From Lentisphaerota bacterium (GTDB lineage Bacteria > Verrucomicrobiota > Kiritimatiellia > CAIQIC01 > Lenti-01): 64,000 nucleotides of DNA. The DNA is taken from NCBI GenBank assembly GCA_012514035.1, contig JAAZBB010000072.1, positions 1 to 64,000 on the forward strand, in the 5' to 3' direction. The translations under genes were made by a program, and so were the position numbers. Positions 9,611 to 44,216 of this stretch are shown here, piece after piece. Numbering within the stretch: the stretch's first letter is position 1; the number at the start of each line of letters is the position of its first letter. The notes under the pieces are model-generated. The model was not told the DNA's origin, ran no database searches, and saw only the letters and a program-made list of their open reading frames with translations.

Positions 9611-11632
9611 TCAGGCGCTGAAAATGCGCCGCACGGCGGCGATCTGGCTGACATCCCCCATCAATAGCACCCGGTCGCCCACCTGCAATGGCCAGCTTCC
9701 ATCGGGATTCAACAAGATGTCCGAGCCGCGCTCGATGCTGACGACGGTCGCCCCCGTCGCTGTGCGCAATTGCAGTTGAGGGATGGACATTCCCACCACG
9801 GGGGAGTTGTAGGGCACCAGGACCGCGGTGACATCCCGATCGAGCAGGGCGCCGATCGTGGCGGGCATCGACGGCGATAGCGCGCTGGGCGCCTGCCGGG
9901 CAAACAGATCGCCCACTTCCCCCTGGGCCCGCGCATATACGCGCACCAGCATTTTCCAGCTCAGACCCGTGACCAGAGCCACTACCGCGACAAGGACAAC
10001 CATGACACGCGGGGAAGGCAGGAAGGCGGACCCCAGCAGGAAGGTGAGCAGGCCCATGCCCGCCACGCCGAGGAACAGAGTCAACGCGCCAACGAACGCC
10101 CGCAGCTGACGCGCCCACAAGGTGCGGTTGGTGGACGGCAGCGTCACCTCGGCCAGCATCATTCCCAGCGCCTGGATCTTGCGGAAGCTGGCCACGTAAA
10201 ACGGAAGCCCCAGCAGGAGGGTGGCCAGCCAAATCAATCCGCGCTGACCGTCCGGCCCGAACGGCAGCCGTGCCAATACACCCTCCTGCCTGGCAACCAC
10301 TCCTGCGGACAGGAACAACCCCGCGATGAAGGCGTTGTTGATGGCAACCGTCCAGAGCGAACGGCGAACCGCCCGGCGAATCGGGTTGTCGCGATTCTCT
10401 TCCCCCATCTGGTGGAGCCAGTGCGTATACACCCCGAGCGTCTGGACCACGCGCGTGGGCACGAGGAGGCGGGCACGGGCCGCCAGCCAGTCCGAGCACC
10501 GGATCAAATACGGGTTCACCACCACCGAGAGAACAGTCGCGCCCACCGCCACCTGATACACTTCCGGTCGCGTGGCATGCATCGCAAGTCCCAAGGCCGC
10601 GATGATCAAGGCGAACTCCGCGACCTGCCCCATGGCGATGCCGACGCGGAACGAGGTGCCCAGGCTGCCGCCCGTCAAGAAACAACCCAGGGTGCAGTTG
10701 ATCCATTTCCCCACGATGATAATGGCGGCGACGCCAATGATCGGTCCCGCGTGCTGCACCAGCAGCATCGGCTGGACCAACAGGCCGATGGCCACAAAAA
10801 ACACCGCCGTGAACATGTGCCGCAGCGGCGCCACCAGCATCTCCACGCGCCCGATCATCCCGGATTCGGCCGTGATCGCGCCAATCAGGAACGCGCCGAG
10901 AGCCAGACTGAGATGGAGCTCGACGGCGAGCAGAGAAACGCCGAACGCCAGCGCCAGCACGACGATGACAAGTAATTCGTCATTGCGATAGCGGACCACC
11001 CGCGTCAGAAGCCGCGGCACCAACAGCAGGCCGGTGATGATGACCGTGACGAGGAAGATGCCAAGAACCCCCATCCGGCCCAACACCGGACCGGCCTGGA
11101 GACTGCCGGTCGAAATAACGCCCGTAAGGATCGCGATCAGCCCGATCGCCAGCAGGTCCTCCACCAAGGTGGTGGCATAAACGATGTGGGCAAAAGACTC
11201 CTGCGACTTGTGAAGGTCCCGCAACAGCTTGGCCAGCACCGTGGTGGAGGAGTCGCAGATCACGGCGCCCAGGAAAAGGCTTTCGAGCGCGCCCCAGCCC
11301 AGCCAGATCCCGACGTGATAGCCCAGATAGAGCATCAGGACCACATCCAGCACAGCGATGATCAGCGCCTTGCGTCCGACCGCCCGCAAGCGGCGCAGAT
11401 GGAATTCCAGTCCCAGGGAAAACATCAGAAACAGGATACCCAGATCGGCCAGGGTCTGGATCGTCGTCTCGCTTTGCACAAACGAAAACGGGGGAGTGTG
11501 GGGACCGATCGCGATGCCCGCCAGAATATAGCCCAGCACTTTCGACTGGTCGAACATGTGGGCCAAAAAGGCCGCGATGCCCGCCGCGATCATCACAATC
11601 GCCAGGTCATGGAGGAGCGTCACCTCGTTCAT
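9611..11632 (-). CDS. CPA2-type (Kef-like) cation:proton antiporter with C-terminal TrkA-C domain
   Basis: A 673-residue inner-membrane protein. Residues 1-390 form about 12 helices of the Na+/H+ exchanger fold (FDQSKVLGYILAGIAIGP, LGLEFHLRRL, CDSSTTVLAKLL, SLALGAFLIGAITAES). A second cluster of membrane helices follows around residues 450-560, and the last 80 residues (VPYNSPVVGMSIPQLQL through GDRVLLMGDVSQI) are a TrkA-C ligand-binding domain. Unlike KefB/KefC there is no NAD-binding TrkA-N domain. It probably exchanges K+ or Na+ for protons. The ORF track runs on to 13021, but that part overlaps the opposite-strand prenyl synthase; ATG 11632 is the sensible start, although its ribosome site is weak. 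Confidence 0.88.
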   Translation of the reverse strand: MNEVTLLHDLAIVMIAAGIAAFLAHMFDQSKVLGYILAGIAIGPHTPPFSFVQSETTIQTLADLGILFLMFSLGLEFHLRRLRAVGRKALIIAVLDVVLMLYLGYHVGIWLGWGALESLFLGAVICDSSTTVLAKLLRDLHKSQESFAHIVYATTLVEDLLAIGLIAILTGVISTGSLQAGPVLGRMGVLGIFLVTVIITGLLLVPRLLTRVVRYRNDELLVIVVLALAFGVSLLAVELHLSLALGAFLIGAITAESGMIGRVEMLVAPLRHMFTAVFFVAIGLLVQPMLLVQHAGPIIGVAAIIIVGKWINCTLGCFLTGGSLGTSFRVGIAMGQVAEFALIIAALGLAMHATRPEVYQVAVGATVLSVVVNPYLIRCSDWLAARARLLVPTRVVQTLGVYTHWLHQMGEENRDNPIRRAVRRSLWTVAINNAFIAGLFLSAGVVARQEGVLARLPFGPDGQRGLIWLATLLLGLPFYVASFRKIQALGMMLAEVTLPSTNRTLWARQLRAFVGALTLFLGVAGMGLLTFLLGSAFLPSPRVMVVLVAVVALVTGLSWKMLVRVYARAQGEVGDLFARQAPSALSPSMPATIGALLDRDVTAVLVPYNSPVVGMSIPQLQLRTATGATVVSIERGSDILLNPDGSWPLQVGDRVLLMGDVSQIAAVRRIFSA

Positions 11633-11810
11633 CGCACGGCACCGATGTTGTTCACAGGAGTATTGTTCATTTTCAACCGTTTTCTCGCAAGGCGATTTTC
11701 CATCTGTTTCGCGCCGGCTCGTGGCAACGGGAAGCGGCGGTCGTGCGCAGCGGCCTTTCCGGGAAACCCGCCCGGCTGATCCCGTCGCGGATCCGCGAAT
11801 CCGCCCGCGC

Positions 11811-11840
11811 TTGCCTTTGACAAGCCATCTGCCGTATAGG
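11811..11840 (+). promoter_or_regulatory. Probable promoter of the prenyl synthase-flavodoxin-cyclase-like operon
   Basis: TTGCCT (11811-11816) and TATAGG (11835-11840) are separated by 18 nt. Transcription would begin near 11847, which leaves almost no leader for a GTG start at 11852 and favours ATG 11870 for the first gene. A second TTGACA overlaps at 11817 but has a poor -10 partner. Confidence 0.45.
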
Positions 11841-11869: not shown

Positions 11870-12760
11870 ATGGAGAATCTGGATACCTGCCTGGACCAGG
11901 TCCGGCGCCTGATGGCCGAAGTGTTGTCGGAAACCGTGCTCGGCCGGCTGGCGGACCATAGCCGTGCACTGACCGGCTCCGGCAAGATGCTGCGCGCCCG
12001 GCTCCTGCTGCGGATTGCGGCCGTCCGGAAAATTCCCCGCCCGGCGTGGTTGTCCGCCGCCGCGGCCGTGGAAATGATCCATGCCGCCAGCCTCCTGCAC
12101 GACGACGTGATTGATGGCGGCATCATCCGCCGGCATCTGCCCGCCTTCTGGAAGCAGCGCGGCATCGCCGGCGCCATCCTCGCGGGCGATCTCATGCTGT
12201 TCAAGGCGCTGGACCTGCTCGTGCGCGCGGAGGAAACCCGGCTCCTGGCCGAACTCATCCGCCACACCGGCACGCTCTGCGATGCCGAAGCGGAACAGGA
12301 ACTCCTCTCGCGCGGCGGCCGGACGGCCTGGGCGCAAATCCTGGACGTCAACCGGCGCAAGACCGGCTCGCTGTTCGCCTTTGCCGCCAGCGCCGCCGCC
12401 GGCGGGGATAAATCCCTGCATCGCGCGCTGCTGAAGGCCGGCTACGCCCTCGGAACCGCCTACCAGTTGGCGGATGATATCCTGGACGCCTCCGGTGCCG
12501 AAACCGCCGCCGGCAAGACGCTGGGCACCGATCGGGCCCGCCGCAAAAACACCGCGGCGAACCCGGCTCCCCCCAAGGCCGCCGCGCCGGCCCGCCATTG
12601 CCGCGAACTCCGGCGCGCCGCGCTGGCCGCCGTCCGGCGCTGGCCCGAGATCCATGCCACCCTGCAAGACTACTGCCGCCAGGATTTTGATCCGGTCGTC
12701 GAACCCATGCTGGCCGGACGGACAAACAAGCAAAAACACCGGAACGGAGGCCCCCCATGA
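11870..12760 (+). CDS. Polyprenyl diphosphate synthase family protein
   Basis: A trans-isoprenyl diphosphate synthase that condenses isopentenyl diphosphate with an allylic diphosphate in the cytoplasm. Both Mg2+-binding aspartate motifs are intact: LLHDDVID (first DDxxD, about residue 77) and QLADDILD (second DDxxD, about residue 201). KMLRARLLL gives the basic K/R pair and AGDLMLFKA the following helix. Its 296 residues are slightly short for long-chain synthases (about 320). The ORF track uses GTG 11852; I prefer ATG 11870 because the likely transcription start is near 11847, but neither has a strong ribosome site. It overlaps the flavodoxin gene by 4 nt (ATGA). Chain length cannot be read from the sequence. 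Confidence 0.85.
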   Translation: MENLDTCLDQVRRLMAEVLSETVLGRLADHSRALTGSGKMLRARLLLRIAAVRKIPRPAWLSAAAAVEMIHAASLLHDDVIDGGIIRRHLPAFWKQRGIAGAILAGDLMLFKALDLLVRAEETRLLAELIRHTGTLCDAEAEQELLSRGGRTAWAQILDVNRRKTGSLFAFAASAAAGGDKSLHRALLKAGYALGTAYQLADDILDASGAETAAGKTLGTDRARRKNTAANPAPPKAAAPARHCRELRRAALAAVRRWPEIHATLQDYCRQDFDPVVEPMLAGRTNKQKHRNGGPP

Positions 12761-13251
12761 AGGCCGTTGTCGTGTACGAGTCGTTGTGGGGCAATACGGC
12801 GACGATTGCGCGAGCCATCGCCGCGGGCATCGGCCCGGATGCCCGGGCGCTGTCCACGGCGGAGGCCACCGCCGAAGCGCTCGTCGGGGTTGATCTGATC
12901 GTGGCGGGCTCGCCGCTCTTCGCCTTCCAGCTTCCCACGGACCGGATTCGCGACACCATTCGCAAGCGCGCGGGCTCGTTTCCCGCGCCGCCGGACCTGT
13001 CGCACCCCGCGCTGCGCACATGGCTGGCTGCCCTGCCCCGCGGAACAGGCTGCGGCGCGGCCTTTGAAACGCGCATGTGGTTCTCGCCCGGCGGCGCCAC
13101 CGGCGCCATTCTTCGGGAATTGAAGCGCGCCGGCTATCCGCCCGCCGCCCGCGGCCAGCGCTTCCGCGTCACCGGCATGTTCGGTCCCCTCAAGACCGGC
13201 GAACTCGAGCGCGCACGGGCCTGGGGCACCCAATTGGCGCGAACGACCTGA
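12757..13251 (+). CDS. Flavodoxin domain protein
   Basis: A 164-residue protein starting MKAVVVYESLWGNTATIARAI, the FMN phosphate-binding loop of flavodoxins (S-x-x-GNT). A second block, GVDLIVAGSPLFAFQLP, corresponds to the flavodoxin strand and loop around the flavin ring. The remainder (about 85 residues) is less typical but ends with GMFGPLKTGELERARAWG, as in flavodoxin-like oxidoreductases. It probably carries electrons through FMN. It is translationally coupled to the polyprenyl synthase (ATGA overlap), and the DADDTA lipoprotein begins 8 nt after its stop, so a role in redox steps of isoprenoid metabolism is possible. Expression from the same transcript is clear from spacing; the pathway link is inference. 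Confidence 0.8.
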   Translation: MKAVVVYESLWGNTATIARAIAAGIGPDARALSTAEATAEALVGVDLIVAGSPLFAFQLPTDRIRDTIRKRAGSFPAPPDLSHPALRTWLAALPRGTGCGAAFETRMWFSPGGATGAILRELKRAGYPPAARGQRFRVTGMFGPLKTGELERARAWGTQLARTT

Positions 13252-13259
13252 AGACCGGC

Positions 13260-14729
13260 ATGAGCGCCCGGGCCGAAACAAAACCGGGATGGCCGCGCAA
13301 AACGGCCCGCCGGGTCTTCGCCGGCATGCTCCTGGCGCTGGTCCCGGGCTGCGGATTGCATTTTTATTACGGCCCGGTCCAATGTCCGCCATCGGACCCC
13401 GGACTTTCCCCCATCGCGCGTGCCCTGTCCTACCTGGATGAAACACAGGTGAAAGAGGTGCTCCGCCCCCTGGCGGGCGGGGCGGATTTCCCCGGCAACT
13501 GGCCTCAACATGTCCTGATCAATTTTCCGGCGCGCATCCGCGCGCGCGATGTCAGCCCCTTCCTGCCGGCCTGCATTCATCACTCCCTCGCGCTGATTCA
13601 TGAAGAAACGCAGGCAGCCCTGGGCCTGCCGGGGCAATCGATCGACCGCGCGCGCGCGCTGCGGCAGGCCGCGGTGGAGTTCATGCGGCGGTTCGAAGTC
13701 CCGCCGGGATCGCCCCTGGCCGGGGCCTATGGATTCTGGTTGCGGGCGGAGGAATGCGCCGCTTGGCGCAAGCCATGGCTCGAGCGGCTGCGCGGCGACT
13801 GGCTGGCCAAACCGATGTTCTGGCTCTTCATGCACGGTCCGGCCATGCAAGGTCCGCTGGTGGCCCTCAACGTCCCCCAAATGCCGCCCGCATACGGCAT
13901 CCATCCGGATGCCGACGACACCGCGATGATTCATCTGGCGCTCCTGAACGCGCATCGGTTCGATGGCGGCGCGGAGCCGCGCCCACCGTTTTCCCTGCTG
14001 GCCGACTGGCGGGACACCGGACGGGAAGAACTCTTCTCAAGGCCGGACTGGCTGCCCGAAGCCAGCGGCGCTTTCCTGACCTGGTTCGGCGCCCCCGTCA
14101 ACGACGTGGATCTGGCGGTCAACGCCAATGTCCTTTACCTGCTGGCCCGCTGCGGGCGACGGGATGCACCGGGGGCGGCCGCAGCACAGGCGTTGATCTG
14201 CCAGGCGGTCCCGGCCTTCCTGGATGGCACCGCGCGGGACACCATCGAGGTGTACTATCCCAACCCGATGATGGCCTATCGCTGCATCGCGCGGGCGTTC
14301 CGCGCCGGGCCGGTGCCCGGCCTGGAACCGGCCGTGCGGCATATTGCCGACATGCTCCGGCAACGCGCCCGCGTCCGGAAGGACGGCACGGTCCATTGGA
14401 ACTTCGGCCAGCCGGCCTTGGACACGACTTGCGGAATTCTGATCCTGATCGATGCGCAACAACACCTGGATCTCGTGCCCGGTGCTGCCCGGTTCGTGCT
14501 GCAGAAACAGGATCCGCGCCGGGGCAACTGGCCGGAAGGCTATGCGTTCGGAGGGCGCAGCGGCCGGGGCCATCGCATCAACTGGGTTTCCGCGCCGTTC
14601 AGCACCGCCCTGGCCCTTGAAGCCTTGTGCCGCATCGTGCTGGCGGCCGAGGACATGCCCGATCCGGATTGGCGGAAGGTGGCGCAAAGCGCCCGGGCGG
14701 CCGGTCGCAGCCAAAACGGCCGCCGCTGA
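13260..14729 (+). CDS. Probable lipoprotein with terpene-cyclase-like alpha/alpha repeats and a DADDTA motif
   Basis: A 489-residue protein starting at ATG 13260; the longer ORF-track start lies inside the flavodoxin gene. An N-terminal hydrophobic run ends LLALVPGCGLHF, a lipobox-like cut site with an unusual proline at -2, so membrane anchoring is probable. The body is helix-rich. HPDADDTAMIHLALLNAH near residue 222 matches the DxDDTA acid motif of class II cyclases such as squalene-hopene cyclase, and late segments (TVHWNFGQPALDTTCG; RINWVSAPFSTALALEAL) resemble the toroid repeats of that fold. It is shorter than squalene-hopene cyclases (about 630) and I see no clear QW repeats. The operon with a prenyl synthase supports an isoprenoid role, but a non-enzymatic toroid protein is equally possible. 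Confidence 0.6.
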   Translation: MSARAETKPGWPRKTARRVFAGMLLALVPGCGLHFYYGPVQCPPSDPGLSPIARALSYLDETQVKEVLRPLAGGADFPGNWPQHVLINFPARIRARDVSPFLPACIHHSLALIHEETQAALGLPGQSIDRARALRQAAVEFMRRFEVPPGSPLAGAYGFWLRAEECAAWRKPWLERLRGDWLAKPMFWLFMHGPAMQGPLVALNVPQMPPAYGIHPDADDTAMIHLALLNAHRFDGGAEPRPPFSLLADWRDTGREELFSRPDWLPEASGAFLTWFGAPVNDVDLAVNANVLYLLARCGRRDAPGAAAAQALICQAVPAFLDGTARDTIEVYYPNPMMAYRCIARAFRAGPVPGLEPAVRHIADMLRQRARVRKDGTVHWNFGQPALDTTCGILILIDAQQHLDLVPGAARFVLQKQDPRRGNWPEGYAFGGRSGRGHRINWVSAPFSTALALEALCRIVLAAEDMPDPDWRKVAQSARAAGRSQNGRR

Positions 14730-14742
14730 AGGCCCCGGCGAA

Positions 14743-15099
14743 TCAGAAGCTGACGCGCCAGCCGATGGACGCGCCGGCAACCTGCGCCGGATTTCCCGCC
14801 CCCGATGATTCCATGCCCAGCGGCGCGGTCACGGCTTGCAGGACAATGGGCGACTCTTCCGCCGCCCGGACGGCCCGGGCAATGGCCGCCTCGGTATCCG
14901 CCTGCGAGTAACGCTCCACATCGGCGCGCAGCGAGACCAGCGCATACACGACCACCACGGCCGCCAGCAGGCCCACCGTCACCGCCGCTCCCGTCGAATC
15001 GGCGCCCATCTCCGCGCGGGCCGGTGCCGCCGGCAGTCCGGCCCACACCAATGCCGCCACCAGTACCAAGGCCGTTCCGCTCCATCCCTTCCGTTTCAT
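14743..15099 (-). CDS. Small secreted or membrane protein at the end of the mla operon
   Basis: A 118-residue protein with a signal peptide (MKRKGWSGTALVLVAALVWAG, then a probable cut after ARA) and a second hydrophobic helix (AAVTVGLLAAVVVVYALVSL). A short charged part follows (ADVERYSQADTEAAIARAVRAAEES). It has a good ribosome site (GGAGG 6 nt before the ATG) and lies 26 nt after the MlaD-like gene, so it belongs to that operon. No known family is recognised. It may be a small accessory of the lipid transporter. Confidence 0.65.
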   Translation of the reverse strand: MKRKGWSGTALVLVAALVWAGLPAAPARAEMGADSTGAAVTVGLLAAVVVVYALVSLRADVERYSQADTEAAIARAVRAAEESPIVLQAVTAPLGMESSGAGNPAQVAGASIGWRVSF

Positions 15100-15125
15100 G
15101 GCATGCCTCCGCTCCGGTCCCGTCC

Positions 15126-16007
15126 CTAGAAAATCCCGAAAAACACGCTGGTGAAGGTGGTGATGGGCGAAGTCTCCCGCATGTCGTCCACCGCCGCCCG
15201 GCCTTCGCGCAGCAAGGCCTTGAAATGCAGATAGAGTTCCTCGTCCGCCACCAGCTTGCCCAGCGTGCCTTCGCCGTTTGCGACCGCTTCGGTCATCTGG
15301 CGGAACGCCGCCAGGGTGGCGGTGAGATCTTCGTAGGCCTGGTTGTCTTCGGCCAGCAGCCGGCCCAGCGTGCCGTCCCCCCGGGCCAGCCGCTCGCTGA
15401 TGCCCTTCAGGTTCGCCGTGATCTGCTGGACGTCGCCATAAATCGCGTCATCCGTCATCAGCCGGCCCAGCGTGCCTTCGCCTTCGCCGAGACGCGTGAC
15501 GACCTTGCGGATTTGCGCCAGGGTGACCTGGATGTCTTCCAGGGCGTCGTCGCTCAGGGTCTGCTGGATCCGCTGGACGGTCTTCGCGGCCGTGGACATC
15601 AAATCCGGGGTTTCCGTGCCCCGGAGCTGCGCGTCCGGCGGCAGGCGGGGCGCCGCGGGATCGCCTTCGTAGATGTTGAGTACGTTGCCGCCGATGAGCG
15701 AGCCGCCCTGGATTTGGATGCGGTAGCCTTCGTGCAGTACCAGCGGCTGGTCGAGCCGGGCCTTGACCCGCACCTGGTGATCCTGCAGCCCGATCTCCTG
15801 GATCTTGCCGACCGGCACGCCGCGCACCATGACCGCATGCCCGACCGCCAGATCCTTCACAGAATCGAAAACGACCTCCAGCGGGTAATAGGTCCGGAAC
15901 AGCTTTTCTTCACTCAGTACGGTGGTCAGCGCCAGCAGCACGAGAATCATCGCAAAGGAGAAAATGCCGACGGCAACTTCCGTGATGATTTGTTTTTTGT
16001 TCTTCAT
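15126..16007 (-). CDS. mlaD: MlaD/MCE domain substrate-binding protein
   Basis: A 293-residue protein with one N-terminal membrane anchor (IITEVAVGIFSFAMILVLLALTTVL) and an MCE domain. YYPLEVVFDSVKDLAVGHAVMVRGVPVGKIQEI includes the V-x-x-L-x-x-G-x-x-V-x-x-x-G-V-x-V-G-x-V pattern of MCE proteins that bind lipid in the periplasm. The C-terminal half is helical, with repeated GEGTLGRL-type segments (GEGTLGRLMTDD, GDGTLGRLLAED, GEGTLGKLVADE), typical of long-tailed MCE proteins that form a tube. The start at 16007 overlaps the ATPase stop (ATGA). It works with MlaE and MlaF to move lipids between membranes. Confidence 0.92.
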   Translation of the reverse strand: MKNKKQIITEVAVGIFSFAMILVLLALTTVLSEEKLFRTYYPLEVVFDSVKDLAVGHAVMVRGVPVGKIQEIGLQDHQVRVKARLDQPLVLHEGYRIQIQGGSLIGGNVLNIYEGDPAAPRLPPDAQLRGTETPDLMSTAAKTVQRIQQTLSDDALEDIQVTLAQIRKVVTRLGEGEGTLGRLMTDDAIYGDVQQITANLKGISERLARGDGTLGRLLAEDNQAYEDLTATLAAFRQMTEAVANGEGTLGKLVADEELYLHFKALLREGRAAVDDMRETSPITTFTSVFFGIF

Positions 16008-16768
16008 TTGGCAAAAGCCTGATGGACATCCTGCAGGGTGACGATGCCCTGCGCCCGGAGGAAGTTTCGCACGACCGGATGCGGCGATGCAATGAATTCT
16101 TCCGGCGGGGCGCACACCACGAACCGCCCCTCGTGGAGCATGGCCACGCGGCTGCCGATCTGCAGTGCGCTGTAGAGGTCATGCGTCACCACCACGCTGG
16201 TCACGCCCAGCCGCCGCCGGAGGTCGTCAATCAGCAGATCGATCTGCCGGGAGATCATCGGATCCAGGCCGGAGGTGGGTTCGTCGTAGAGGATGATTTC
16301 CGGCTGGGTCACGATGGCCCGGGCCAGCCCGACCCGCTTGCGCATGCCCCCGGAGATGTCGGCGGGCATGCGATCGCCCACGCCCTCCAGTCCGACCAGC
16401 CGGAGCATGTCGGCGGCGCGCTGGCGGATTTCGGCGTCCGGCAGGCGCGTCTTCTGCCGCAACGGCAGGCAGACGTTGTCCTCCACGTTCAGCCACTGCA
16501 GCAGCGCCGCCCCCTGGAACAGGACCCCGAACCGCGCCAGGATGCGTTCCAGCGGGCGGCCCGTCGCCTCACTGATGCAATCGTCCCCAACCCACACCCG
16601 GCCCTGTTCCGGCGTCAGCAGCCGCACCATGTGCCGGATGCTCACGCTCTTGCCGGCGCCGGAGAGGCCCACGATCACAAACGTCTCGCCGGCCTGGATC
16701 TCGCAGGACACGTCGTCCAGGACGAGCTTGTCGCCGAACCGCTTGGTCACGTGCTCGAAGCGGATCAT
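16004..16768 (-). CDS. mlaF: MlaF-like ABC transporter ATP-binding protein
   Basis: A 254-residue ATPase of the lipid (Mla) transporter. Walker A GLSGAGKSV is near residue 37, with the Q-loop FQGAALLQWLNVEDNV, signature ISGGMRKRVGLAR, Walker B IILYDEPTSGLDP and the histidine in VVTHDL. The 'SGGMRKR' signature and the 'PTSGLDP' form are those of MlaF. ATG 16768 overlaps the permease stop by ATGA; the longer ORF in the track is an artefact of the permease region. It is encoded between MlaE and MlaD in the standard order. Confidence 0.93.
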   Translation of the reverse strand: MIRFEHVTKRFGDKLVLDDVSCEIQAGETFVIVGLSGAGKSVSIRHMVRLLTPEQGRVWVGDDCISEATGRPLERILARFGVLFQGAALLQWLNVEDNVCLPLRQKTRLPDAEIRQRAADMLRLVGLEGVGDRMPADISGGMRKRVGLARAIVTQPEIILYDEPTSGLDPMISRQIDLLIDDLRRRLGVTSVVVTHDLYSALQIGSRVAMLHEGRFVVCAPPEEFIASPHPVVRNFLRAQGIVTLQDVHQAFAK

Positions 16769-17577
16769 GAGTACCACAGCCTCGTCACGAAATAGCCCAG
16801 CGTCAGGATCAGCAGGAAGGAGACGATCACGCTGCGGCGGGTGGCGCGGCCGACGCCCACGGCCCCCTCCTGCGTGCGGAATCCCTGGTAGCACGACACC
16901 GAAACGATGATCAGCGCAAACACCACGGCCTTGACCAGCCCGACGTAGAAATCCTTGTTGTAGGTGAATTCGAACAGCCCGTCGTAGTAGGTTTCGGGCG
17001 CCACGCCCAGCATCGTGGCAGCCACGATCGCGCCGCCCAGCAGCCCGAGCACGTCCATGTAGATCGTCAGCAGGGGTGCCATCACCACCAGGCCCACCAG
17101 CCGCGGCATCATCAGGTAGCGCAGCGGCGAAACCCCCATCACGTCCAGCGCGGCGATTTCCTCGGAAACCGTCATCGTGCCCAGTTGCGCGGCGATGGCC
17201 GAACCCACGCTGGCGGCCAGGATCAGCCCCGTCATGAACGGGCTCATTTCCCGCAAAATGCCGTTGCACACCAGGGTGCTGACGTACCGCTCCTGCTTGA
17301 CCAGTTCCAGCCCGAGGCCCATCTGCACCGCGAGGATCATGCCGGTGAAAAGCCCCACCACCGTGACCACCCCCAGGCTCTTGATCCCCATGGTGTAAAG
17401 CTGCGTCACGACATTGGCGCGGTTGCGCGGCGTGAACGCCTGCGGCACGTAGGCCAGGGCCCCCAGCAGCATCAGCAGCGCCTGCCCCGTGCCCTGACAG
17501 GCGGCGATCACCCCGCGGCCCAGGGCGGCGACGGCGTTCACCGGGGGATCGTAGTATTGCTGTTCACGGGTGATCAT
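16765..17577 (-). CDS. mlaE: MlaE-like lipid ABC transporter permease
   Basis: A 270-residue membrane protein with the MlaE family core: FTGMILAVQMGLGLELVKQ, a central GSAIAAQLGTMTVSEEIAALDVMGVSPLRYLMMPR stretch (the highly conserved E-x-x-A-L-x-x-M-x-x-x-P loop) and the late GFRTQEGAVGVGRATRRSVI. About five membrane helices. It forms the inner-membrane channel with MlaF. ATG 17577 overlaps the stop of the upstream WPLW protein (ATGA), so the two are translationally coupled. The upstream 840 nt of the ORF-track entry belong to another frame. Confidence 0.92.
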   Translation of the reverse strand: MITREQQYYDPPVNAVAALGRGVIAACQGTGQALLMLLGALAYVPQAFTPRNRANVVTQLYTMGIKSLGVVTVVGLFTGMILAVQMGLGLELVKQERYVSTLVCNGILREMSPFMTGLILAASVGSAIAAQLGTMTVSEEIAALDVMGVSPLRYLMMPRLVGLVVMAPLLTIYMDVLGLLGGAIVAATMLGVAPETYYDGLFEFTYNKDFYVGLVKAVVFALIIVSVSCYQGFRTQEGAVGVGRATRRSVIVSFLLILTLGYFVTRLWYS

Positions 17578-19202
17578 GGCGGGGCCGGCGCCGCCGGCTG
17601 CAGGCGAATCCGCCCCAGCCACAGCAGGCGCACCTGACGATTTGTAGCCGTTCGGTCGTAGGCCAGCAAGCCTTTCAGCACCGACCAGCGCCGCGCGCCG
17701 TCGTCCGCAGTCCGCTCGTGACCCCACAGCGGGAAGAGCGAAAACGCGCGCGCGCCGCCGCGCCGGGTGTCGCGATACAGGCCCCACAGCACGTCCAGAT
17801 CGCTGTCCGCCCCGTTGACGCGATAATCCAGCACGGTCCACAGCGGGGCCCAGCTGCGCTCCACCGGCGGCGGATGGCCCGCCGGCCACAGATCCAGCAG
17901 GCGCAGGCGATAGGCGTCTTTTTCCAGATCGTAATTCCGCGAATACAGCGGCCACAGCTTCGTGCGGTTCGCTGTCACGCGCGCGGGGGTCGCCGGCTCG
18001 CTCTCCTGCGCCGGCGGCCGCCGGCGGCCCGCGGGGCGGGGATTCTCCGACTGCGTCACGTTGTGGTAGAACGGAATCAGGCTCCAGCGGTTTTGTTTCC
18101 GGAAGCCCCACTCGTTCTTCTCGTTGACGATCAGCGGCCAGAGCCAGAAGCGCCGTTCCAGCGCGCCGTCTTGCCGACGGCCGTAGAGCGGCCAGATCAC
18201 CAGCCGTTCGCGGAAGCCCGTCTCGCGCTGAAAAAACGGCCACGGGCAATACGTGCGCGTCATCTTTTCGCTGCGGATCTGCTGGATGAACGGCGGCAGG
18301 AACATCCAGCCCTTCTGGTTTTCCAGGTTGACGCGCCCGACCAGCGGGAACAGCACCCAGGCGGTGCCGTTGGCCTTCGGGTGCGTGTAGCGCGCGTGGG
18401 TCCAGAGCGGCCACAGCACCGCATGCTTCTCGTACTGGCGAACGTTTTTCGCCCAGACGTAGAACGGAAACACGCGGAATTTTTCCAGGTGCCGGTCGGG
18501 CGTTGTCGTCCGCGACCAGATCGGCCAGAGCACGTCCGTGGTCTGCACATCATGGATCCGGCTCTGCGCCCACAGCGGCCAGAGAAAAAAGCGAATGCGG
18601 TCCTGGACCAGGATGTTGCGGACTTCCCCGCCCAGCGGAAACAGCGCCGCGTAGGACGCGCCCTGCTCGTCGCGCCCGTGGAACCAGATCGGCAGCAGCC
18701 AGAAACGGTACTGCGATTCCGGATCCGTCCGGTCCTGGTCCAGGAACCACGAAATCAGCACCCGCCACGACTTCTGTTTTCCGAACGTGCTGCCCGCCGC
18801 CAGCGGCCACAGAACATCCCACGACTCCCGGTCCGCCGCCGGATTCCGCGCCCGCGTCCACAGCGGCCGCGGCGACGCCCGCAGGCTCAGCCCGTTCGTC
18901 CCCTCGGCCCGTTCCCAGAACGGACCGACCGCCCGGAAGCGCGCATTGCCGTCGCTGTCCGCCAGCCACGAGGCCACCGGCCCCCAGTCGCTCTCCACCA
19001 CCCGCGGCTCCACTGCCCCTTGCGCTCCGTCCGCCACCAGCAATGGAAAAAGAATGACGAAAAAAAGTTTTCCACACCGTGGAAAAAAACACCCCTTTTT
19101 TTCCACACAATGGAAAAAATTTTCGCGGTTTTTCCACACAATGGAAAAAAAGTTTCCACAGTGTGGAAAACCGCTTCCGCCCCGCCCCGCCGGCGCGCTC
19201 AC
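17574..19202 (-). CDS. WPLW-repeat protein leading the mla operon, function unknown
   Basis: A protein of 510-542 residues with no recognised domain but an obvious repeat: about every 25-35 residues there is a hydrophobic-x-P-[LIF]-aromatic core (VLWPLA, LLPIWF, LFPLGG, FLWPLW, VLWPIW, VFPFYV, VIWPLY, WLWPLI and so on, roughly 18 copies) in strand-like surroundings. A beta-barrel or beta-propeller is plausible. The start is undecided. GTG 19202 overlaps the dihydropyrimidinase stop (GTGA) but makes the first 40 residues translate the palindrome array. GTG 19106, inside the second palindrome, gives a cleaner signal peptide (MEKKG, then LFFVILFPLLVADGAQGA). It is coupled by ATGA to mlaE, suggesting a cell-envelope partner of the lipid transporter. 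Confidence 0.7.
   Translation of the reverse strand: MSAPAGRGGSGFPHCGNFFSIVWKNRENFFHCVEKKGCFFPRCGKLFFVILFPLLVADGAQGAVEPRVVESDWGPVASWLADSDGNARFRAVGPFWERAEGTNGLSLRASPRPLWTRARNPAADRESWDVLWPLAAGSTFGKQKSWRVLISWFLDQDRTDPESQYRFWLLPIWFHGRDEQGASYAALFPLGGEVRNILVQDRIRFFLWPLWAQSRIHDVQTTDVLWPIWSRTTTPDRHLEKFRVFPFYVWAKNVRQYEKHAVLWPLWTHARYTHPKANGTAWVLFPLVGRVNLENQKGWMFLPPFIQQIRSEKMTRTYCPWPFFQRETGFRERLVIWPLYGRRQDGALERRFWLWPLIVNEKNEWGFRKQNRWSLIPFYHNVTQSENPRPAGRRRPPAQESEPATPARVTANRTKLWPLYSRNYDLEKDAYRLRLLDLWPAGHPPPVERSWAPLWTVLDYRVNGADSDLDVLWGLYRDTRRGGARAFSLFPLWGHERTADDGARRWSVLKGLLAYDRTATNRQVRLLWLGRIRLQPAAPAPP
19068..19170. repeat. Array 1: four copies of the 19-bp palindrome TTTTCCACAC-nnTGGAAAA
   Basis: Copies lie at 19068-19086, 19099-19117, 19130-19148 and 19152-19170. 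The consensus is TTTTCCACACAATGGAAAA; copies 1 and 4 have extended arms (TTTTCCAC-ACC-GTGGAAAA). Start-to-start steps are 31, 31 and 22 nt, close to three, three and two helical turns. The array sits between the dihydropyrimidinase stop and the WPLW gene body and overlaps the possible 5' end of the latter. A half-site, CAATGGAAAAA, lies near 19041. Confidence 0.85.
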
Positions 19203-44136: not shown

Positions 44137-44216
44137 TTTTCCACACCATGGAAAAAATCGGCGTTTTTTTCCACACAATGGAAAAATATTTCGCCGGTTT
44201 TCCACACAATGGAAAA
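44137..44216. repeat. Array 2: three copies of the 19-bp palindrome TTTTCCACAC-nnTGGAAAA
   Basis: Copies lie at 44137-44155, 44167-44185 and 44198-44216, with steps of 30 and 31 nt. Consensus is identical to array 1 (TTTTCCACACAATGGAAAA; copy 1 has CATGG). The array lies between the GEVED protein stop (44259) and the padR promoter, about 70-150 nt upstream of the padR -35 box. Confidence 0.85.

Follow-up and report, generated by a model that had tools for sequence, protein, structure and literature searches.

Could three consecutive genes of a Lentisphaerota bacterium form an isoprenoid module, the last member of which is a terpenoid cyclase of the class II type held outside the cytoplasm? 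This question was raised by a reading made from the DNA letters alone (the sequence-only reading) and concerns a window of 64,000 nt, i.e. positions 1 to 64,000 of the forward strand of contig JAAZBB010000072.1 (assembly GCA_012514035.1; genome G000). The three genes were found where that reading had placed them, following one another on the + strand, with the stop codon of P0001 overlapping the ATG of P0002. The features that bear on the question are as follows.

11870..12760, + strand: P0001, trans polyprenyl diphosphate synthase of the long-chain (octaprenyl-synthase-like) type, from PF00348 and the Asp-rich motifs
12757..13251, + strand: P0002, flavodoxin-like, kept across the genus, from a sub-threshold PF12724 match and a PDB flavodoxin match
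13260..14729, + strand: P0003, orphan 489-residue probable lipoprotein, with P0004 as its sole relative
13260..13352, + strand: putative signal peptide and candidate lipid cysteine Cys31 of P0003, from a pattern common to P0003 and P0004
13908..13925, + strand: DADDTA motif (P0003 residues 217-222), kept in P0004 and in hhalign register with the DxDDTA of squalene-hopene cyclases
14481..14537, + strand: degenerate QW-like segment GAARFVLQKQDPRRGNWPE (P0003 residues 408-426), placed on the last QW repeat of squalene-hopene cyclases in some alignment runs
14743..15099, - strand: conserved small protein of 118 aa, a convergent neighbour, from synteny in the genus
15126..17610, - strand: lipid-transport cassette of MlaD, ABC ATPase (MlaF-like) and MlaE, from PF02470, PF00005, PF02405 and synteny in the genus

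A Na+/H+ exchanger with a TrkA-C domain (KefB-like) is also encoded in the window, at 9611-11821 on the - strand, divergently from the prenyl synthase gene.

The assignment of the first gene to a prenyl diphosphate synthase with intact DDxxD motifs was confirmed. P0001 matched PF00348 at 1.3e-38 (133 bits, the cut-off being 27), both Asp-rich motifs (i.e. HDDVID and DDILD) are present, and the best PDB matches were trans-isoprenyl and octaprenyl diphosphate synthases. Small residues precede the first Asp-rich motif (IHAASLLHDDVID), which is a trait of long-chain prenyl synthases. In a tree, P0001 clustered with a support of 0.994 with the synthases of two loci from another genus (i.e. L009 and L010), both of which adjoin an fmt-like gene as judged from the start of the neighbouring frames; the nearest family members of P0001 are found in an unrelated neighbourhood. 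P0001 is best explained, on the simplest reading, as the ordinary housekeeping long-chain synthase of the cell, of the quinone type, which was brought here by a local rearrangement and does not serve specifically to supply a substrate. A link between P0001 and the cargo of family 2 encapsulins was rejected, as the score of 131 bits, where the cut-off is 450, reflects general prenyl-synthase similarity only. One further PF00348 gene, and no other, was found in G000; it is located in a carotenoid-type cluster on contig C45 (L043:2922-8089), together with genes for a squalene/phytoene synthase family protein (PF00494) and an amine-oxidase/desaturase-like protein (PF01593).

Identification of P0002 as a flavodoxin was only weakly borne out: the first 66 residues of a two-sequence profile matched a PDB flavodoxin at 9.8e-5, but the best Pfam match (PF12724) reached 19.1 bits, below the cut-off of 27. 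Relatives with 73-76% identity were detected in all six other genomes of the genus and in genome G016. Across the genus (window positions 12757-17610 and loci L035-L040) the flavodoxin-like gene adjoins the gene for the 118-aa protein, which is without a Pfam match, and the MlaD/ATPase/MlaE cassette. Only in G000 and G003 is P0003, or its relative, interposed between the genes for the 118-aa protein and the flavodoxin; elsewhere in the genus the flavodoxin is in place without it. The flavodoxin is the older resident of the locus and the lipoprotein gene is a later insertion. A different prenyl synthase (DDLPSMD, FPP-synthase-like by motif) is found beside the flavodoxin in five genomes (G001, G002, G004, G005 and G006), with differing orientations, and throughout the flavodoxin/Mla loci of the genus the inserted prenyl synthase varies in position as well as orientation.

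Some of these loci also carry a palindrome, TTTTCCA-N5-TGGAAAA, in tandem arrays. Arrays were present at window positions 19068-19170 and 44137-44216 and in L035, L036, L038, L039, L041 and L002, with copies spaced at about 31 or 22 bp (i.e. whole helical turns) and with 7 copies in the window as compared to 0.09 expected. In G001, G003 and G005, similar copies directly precede the flavodoxin gene. The array looks like an operator array for some regulator.

Conservation of the three-gene set had been put forward as a check on the proposed module, and the set proved not to be conserved. In G003, which carries P0004 on contig JAKLIL010000247.1 (labelled Verrucomicrobia MAG), the flavodoxin gene lies upstream of P0004 with 7 bases between them, the same pairing and close spacing (7-8 bases) as in G000. 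The G003 locus is without a P0001-type synthase, and a fragment of an FPP-synthase-like synthase starts there on the opposite strand (L002:3438-3590). The trio of prenyl synthase, flavodoxin and lipoprotein is thus not repeated among the related genomes, with the lipoprotein in two of the 28 genomes of the order and the P0001 type missing beside P0004. The idea of an isoprenoid module was not supported, the relatives of P0001 being located elsewhere and the flavodoxin occurring without the lipoprotein in the remainder of the genus. At the genus loci compared, P0003 had no isoprenoid gene as a conserved partner.

P0003 has therefore to be considered in its own right. Its only relative in everything searched is P0004, with 73% identity. 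The pair exhibited a dN of 0.19 and a dS of 0.82 (dN/dS of about 0.23), and the frame is therefore under purifying selection, showing that P0003 is a real gene. All 28 genomes of the order were searched and the P0003 type was present in G000 and G003. No homologs beyond P0004 were found in 56 close relatives, the order genomes, the genome contigs, IMG/VR or plasmids, and searches of 388 genomes of the phylum with a profile and with the single sequence (E <= 0.1) yielded, beyond P0004, only short chance matches. A DNA pattern (DDT...NANV) run through the 388 genomes was discarded, its other matches being judged chance with similar counts for controls. P0003 had no Pfam family at E <= 10, no NCBIfam model and no PDB sequence match at a meaningful level.

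One explanation for such an orphan is that P0003 is a lineage-specific helical lipoprotein with no enzymatic role, such as an accessory of the envelope or of lipid trafficking, and that its DADDTA is a coincidence which the reader singled out. Confinement to two genomes of one genus and the adjoining Mla cassette are in keeping with this explanation, as are the chance frequency of the motif and the restriction of the signal to it, both described below. Purifying selection and the many Trp, Asp and His residues that are invariant between P0003 and P0004 look enzyme-like, however, and the match to squalene-hopene cyclases extends over 17 residues, beyond the hexapeptide. A non-enzymatic role may apply; we do not regard it as likely, but hold it to be as probable as the explanation preferred below.

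The N-terminus of P0003 was examined for signs of export. The pattern RR..AG.LL.L..GC is kept in P0003 and P0004 though the surrounding stretch is otherwise poorly conserved, and Cys31, common to both orthologs, is preceded by a short hydrophobic stretch that follows the arginine pair. The unusual lipobox, with P at -2, had been flagged by the sequence-only reading as needing care, and this caution was justified: the P0003 form (LVPGC) fails a PROSITE-type pattern whereas the P0004 form (LAQGC) passes. Four further cysteines are kept in both proteins, as in some exported proteins. From these features P0003 is probably exported and its lipidation appears likely. Failure of its lipobox would also suit a class II cyclase that is located in the cytosol and supplied by P0001, for which the N-terminal hydrophobic stretch would be a monotopic membrane contact. 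Known class II cyclases act on substrates made in the cytosol, and relatives of the organism have a DADDT cyclase-like gene near a DUF116-prenyl-synthase fusion. The absence of P0001 beside P0004, the retention of RR...LL...GC in both orthologs and the passing lipobox of P0004 argue against a cytosolic enzyme, which is very improbable.

The claim that the 489-residue product of the third gene contains DADDTA was correct (residues 217-222). The bare DxDDTA motif means little because 0.013 occurrences per window, or about 0.6 per genome, are expected by chance. Its surroundings were therefore compared with a set of six genuine squalene-hopene cyclases (SHCs) and 13 DADDT-bearing cyclase-like proteins, all from the phylum. 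Alignment of P0003/P0004 to a profile of the six SHCs using hhalign gave a single segment, PDADDTAMIHLALLNA on YPDVDDTAMVLLAL, with the DxDDTA helix in register and a score of 31.6 (P 0.0043) that was reached by none of 150 column shuffles (best shuffle, 27.0). Of 80 proteins encoded at the same loci, P0003 took the first rank in this comparison. An HMM built from the DxDDT helix (36 columns) was run against 521,000 six-frame residues; its top match was P0003 (HPDADDTAMIHLALLNA) with E = 0.001, and the DADDTA helix of P0004 scored E = 5.8 only. The 17-residue context of DADDTA in P0003 thus fits SHCs better than chance.

Removal of the motif helix left a remainder that was not significant, with 10 of 200 shuffles reaching the P0003 score against SHCs, so that the likeness rests wholly on the stretch picked by the reader. 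Loose alignments of P0003 to SHCs remained colinear between the DxDDTA helix and the final QW repeat. A strict QW motif was absent from P0003, the QW HMM giving 0.9 bits only, at the N-terminus; one degenerate QW-like copy (GAARFVLQKQDPRRGNW) is present, and its alignment to the last SHC QW repeat was not significant. No match of P0003 to the SQHop_cyclase_N/C or Prenyltrans models was obtained. DADDTA is kept in P0004, the sole ortholog, where roughly three in four positions are identical in any case. The reading as a class II cyclase consequently stood in part, in the register of the DxDDTA helix with SHCs and the presence of DADDTA in P0004, but not with regard to family membership, strict QW motifs or signal outside the helix. 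P0003 is not fileable as an SHC because it lacks the QW motifs and matches to the family models; this lowers the case for membership of the family and not the possibility of working alike. P0003 was also compared with the DADDT[AS] cyclases found in the phylum, and kinship was rejected: the score did not rise above the level of shuffles, 2 of 150 of which reached it, and the alignment did not fall at the motif.

Structural models were generated with AlphaFold from the two sequences and had pLDDT values of 38.1 (full length) and 32.1 (mature P0004 first), the low confidence arising because the alignment is too shallow. Foldseek with the pLDDT 38.1 model returned nothing at E <= 0.001. The list for this low-confidence model contained several alpha/alpha barrels, among them MstE (a type II cyclase, rank 3), Ldi, Tpn2, drimenol synthases and a glucuronyl hydrolase; the recurrence of alpha/alpha barrels is a hint only of what the fold may be. 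The same hint would accommodate an exported alpha/alpha-barrel lipoprotein with some other chemistry, e.g. a hydrolase, lyase or binding protein for glycans, with DADDTA either incidental or serving as a carbohydrate-active acid. Alpha/alpha barrels are often glycan-active, and lipoproteins that are exported and act on glycans are common; further matches of the poor model were an unsaturated glucuronyl hydrolase and an alpha-1,6-mannanase, and P0004 had a very weak match (0.12) to the N-terminal domain of GH116. No carbohydrate-active family was detected in Pfam or NCBIfam, however, and the fit of the P0003 DxDDTA helix to SHCs lay above all 150 shuffles. A barrel of another chemistry, such as a glycan-active one, is somewhat doubtful, though only slightly less probable than the explanation preferred here.

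The explanation that we prefer, while holding it as tentative, is that P0003 is an exported, lipid-anchored and all-helical alpha/alpha-toroid, a distant relative of terpenoid cyclases in which Asp219 donates a proton to an isoprenoid of the membrane. The protein would be anchored to a membrane by its lipid, outside the cytoplasm, and would fold into an alpha/alpha toroid with DADDTA at the cavity. Asp219, the middle aspartate of DADDTA, could then protonate an isoprenoid lipid of the anchoring membrane at a double bond, and this protonation would start a cyclisation or isomerisation. For type II synthases, a general-acid role of the central DxDD aspartate is established (PMC9814783). The further proposition, that P0003 is the founding periplasmic, lipid-anchored terpenoid cyclase/isomerase of the class II type, protonating extracytoplasmic membrane isoprenoids via the DADDTA aspartate, is unlikely. 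The evidence base for P0003 is at present one motif helix and an orphan family of two sequences. If an extracytoplasmic lipid-anchored cyclase does exist, the envelope would be a place where membrane isoprenoids (e.g. quinones or polyprenols) can undergo cyclisation; to our knowledge, this route of modification has not been looked for so far.

Comparison with known systems places P0003 at a distance from each of them. SHCs (PF13249/PF13243; L053-L058 in the phylum) share the register of the DxDDTA helix and a similar span from motif to C-terminus (about 260 as compared to 272 residues) but are longer (about 665 as compared to 489 residues), and P0003 has a probable export signal. The DADDT[AS] cyclase-like proteins of L097 and L098 (genomes G020 and G124) carry DADD[TS], SHC-type repeats and a nearby prenyl synthase; unlike P0003, they have a clear Pfam SQHop_cyclase match, are of about 590 aa and are without a lipoprotein start. 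In both L098:3303-9404 (G124) and L097:6667-11157 (G020, in the order of the window) the SHC-like DADDS/DADDTA gene lies near a DUF116-polyprenyl-synthase fusion, and the G124 locus also encodes a radical SAM protein and a prenyltransferase-toroid protein. Among the papers listed by a literature search on DUF116 together with polyprenyl or squalene, none mentions DUF116. MstE and Tpn2, monodomain/two-domain bacterial type II terpene cyclases, have a DxDD motif as does P0003 and appeared in the Foldseek list, but P0003 had no sequence match to them in the PDB search; both are cytosolic enzymes. Linalool dehydratase/isomerase (Ldi) differs from P0003 in that there is no sequence match and P0003 is probably lipid-anchored, and we know of no part for DxDDTA in its chemistry. 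As a periplasmic alpha/alpha-barrel that acts on terpenes and has functional cysteines (PMC6600392), Ldi nevertheless provides a precedent for both the location and the fold proposed for P0003.
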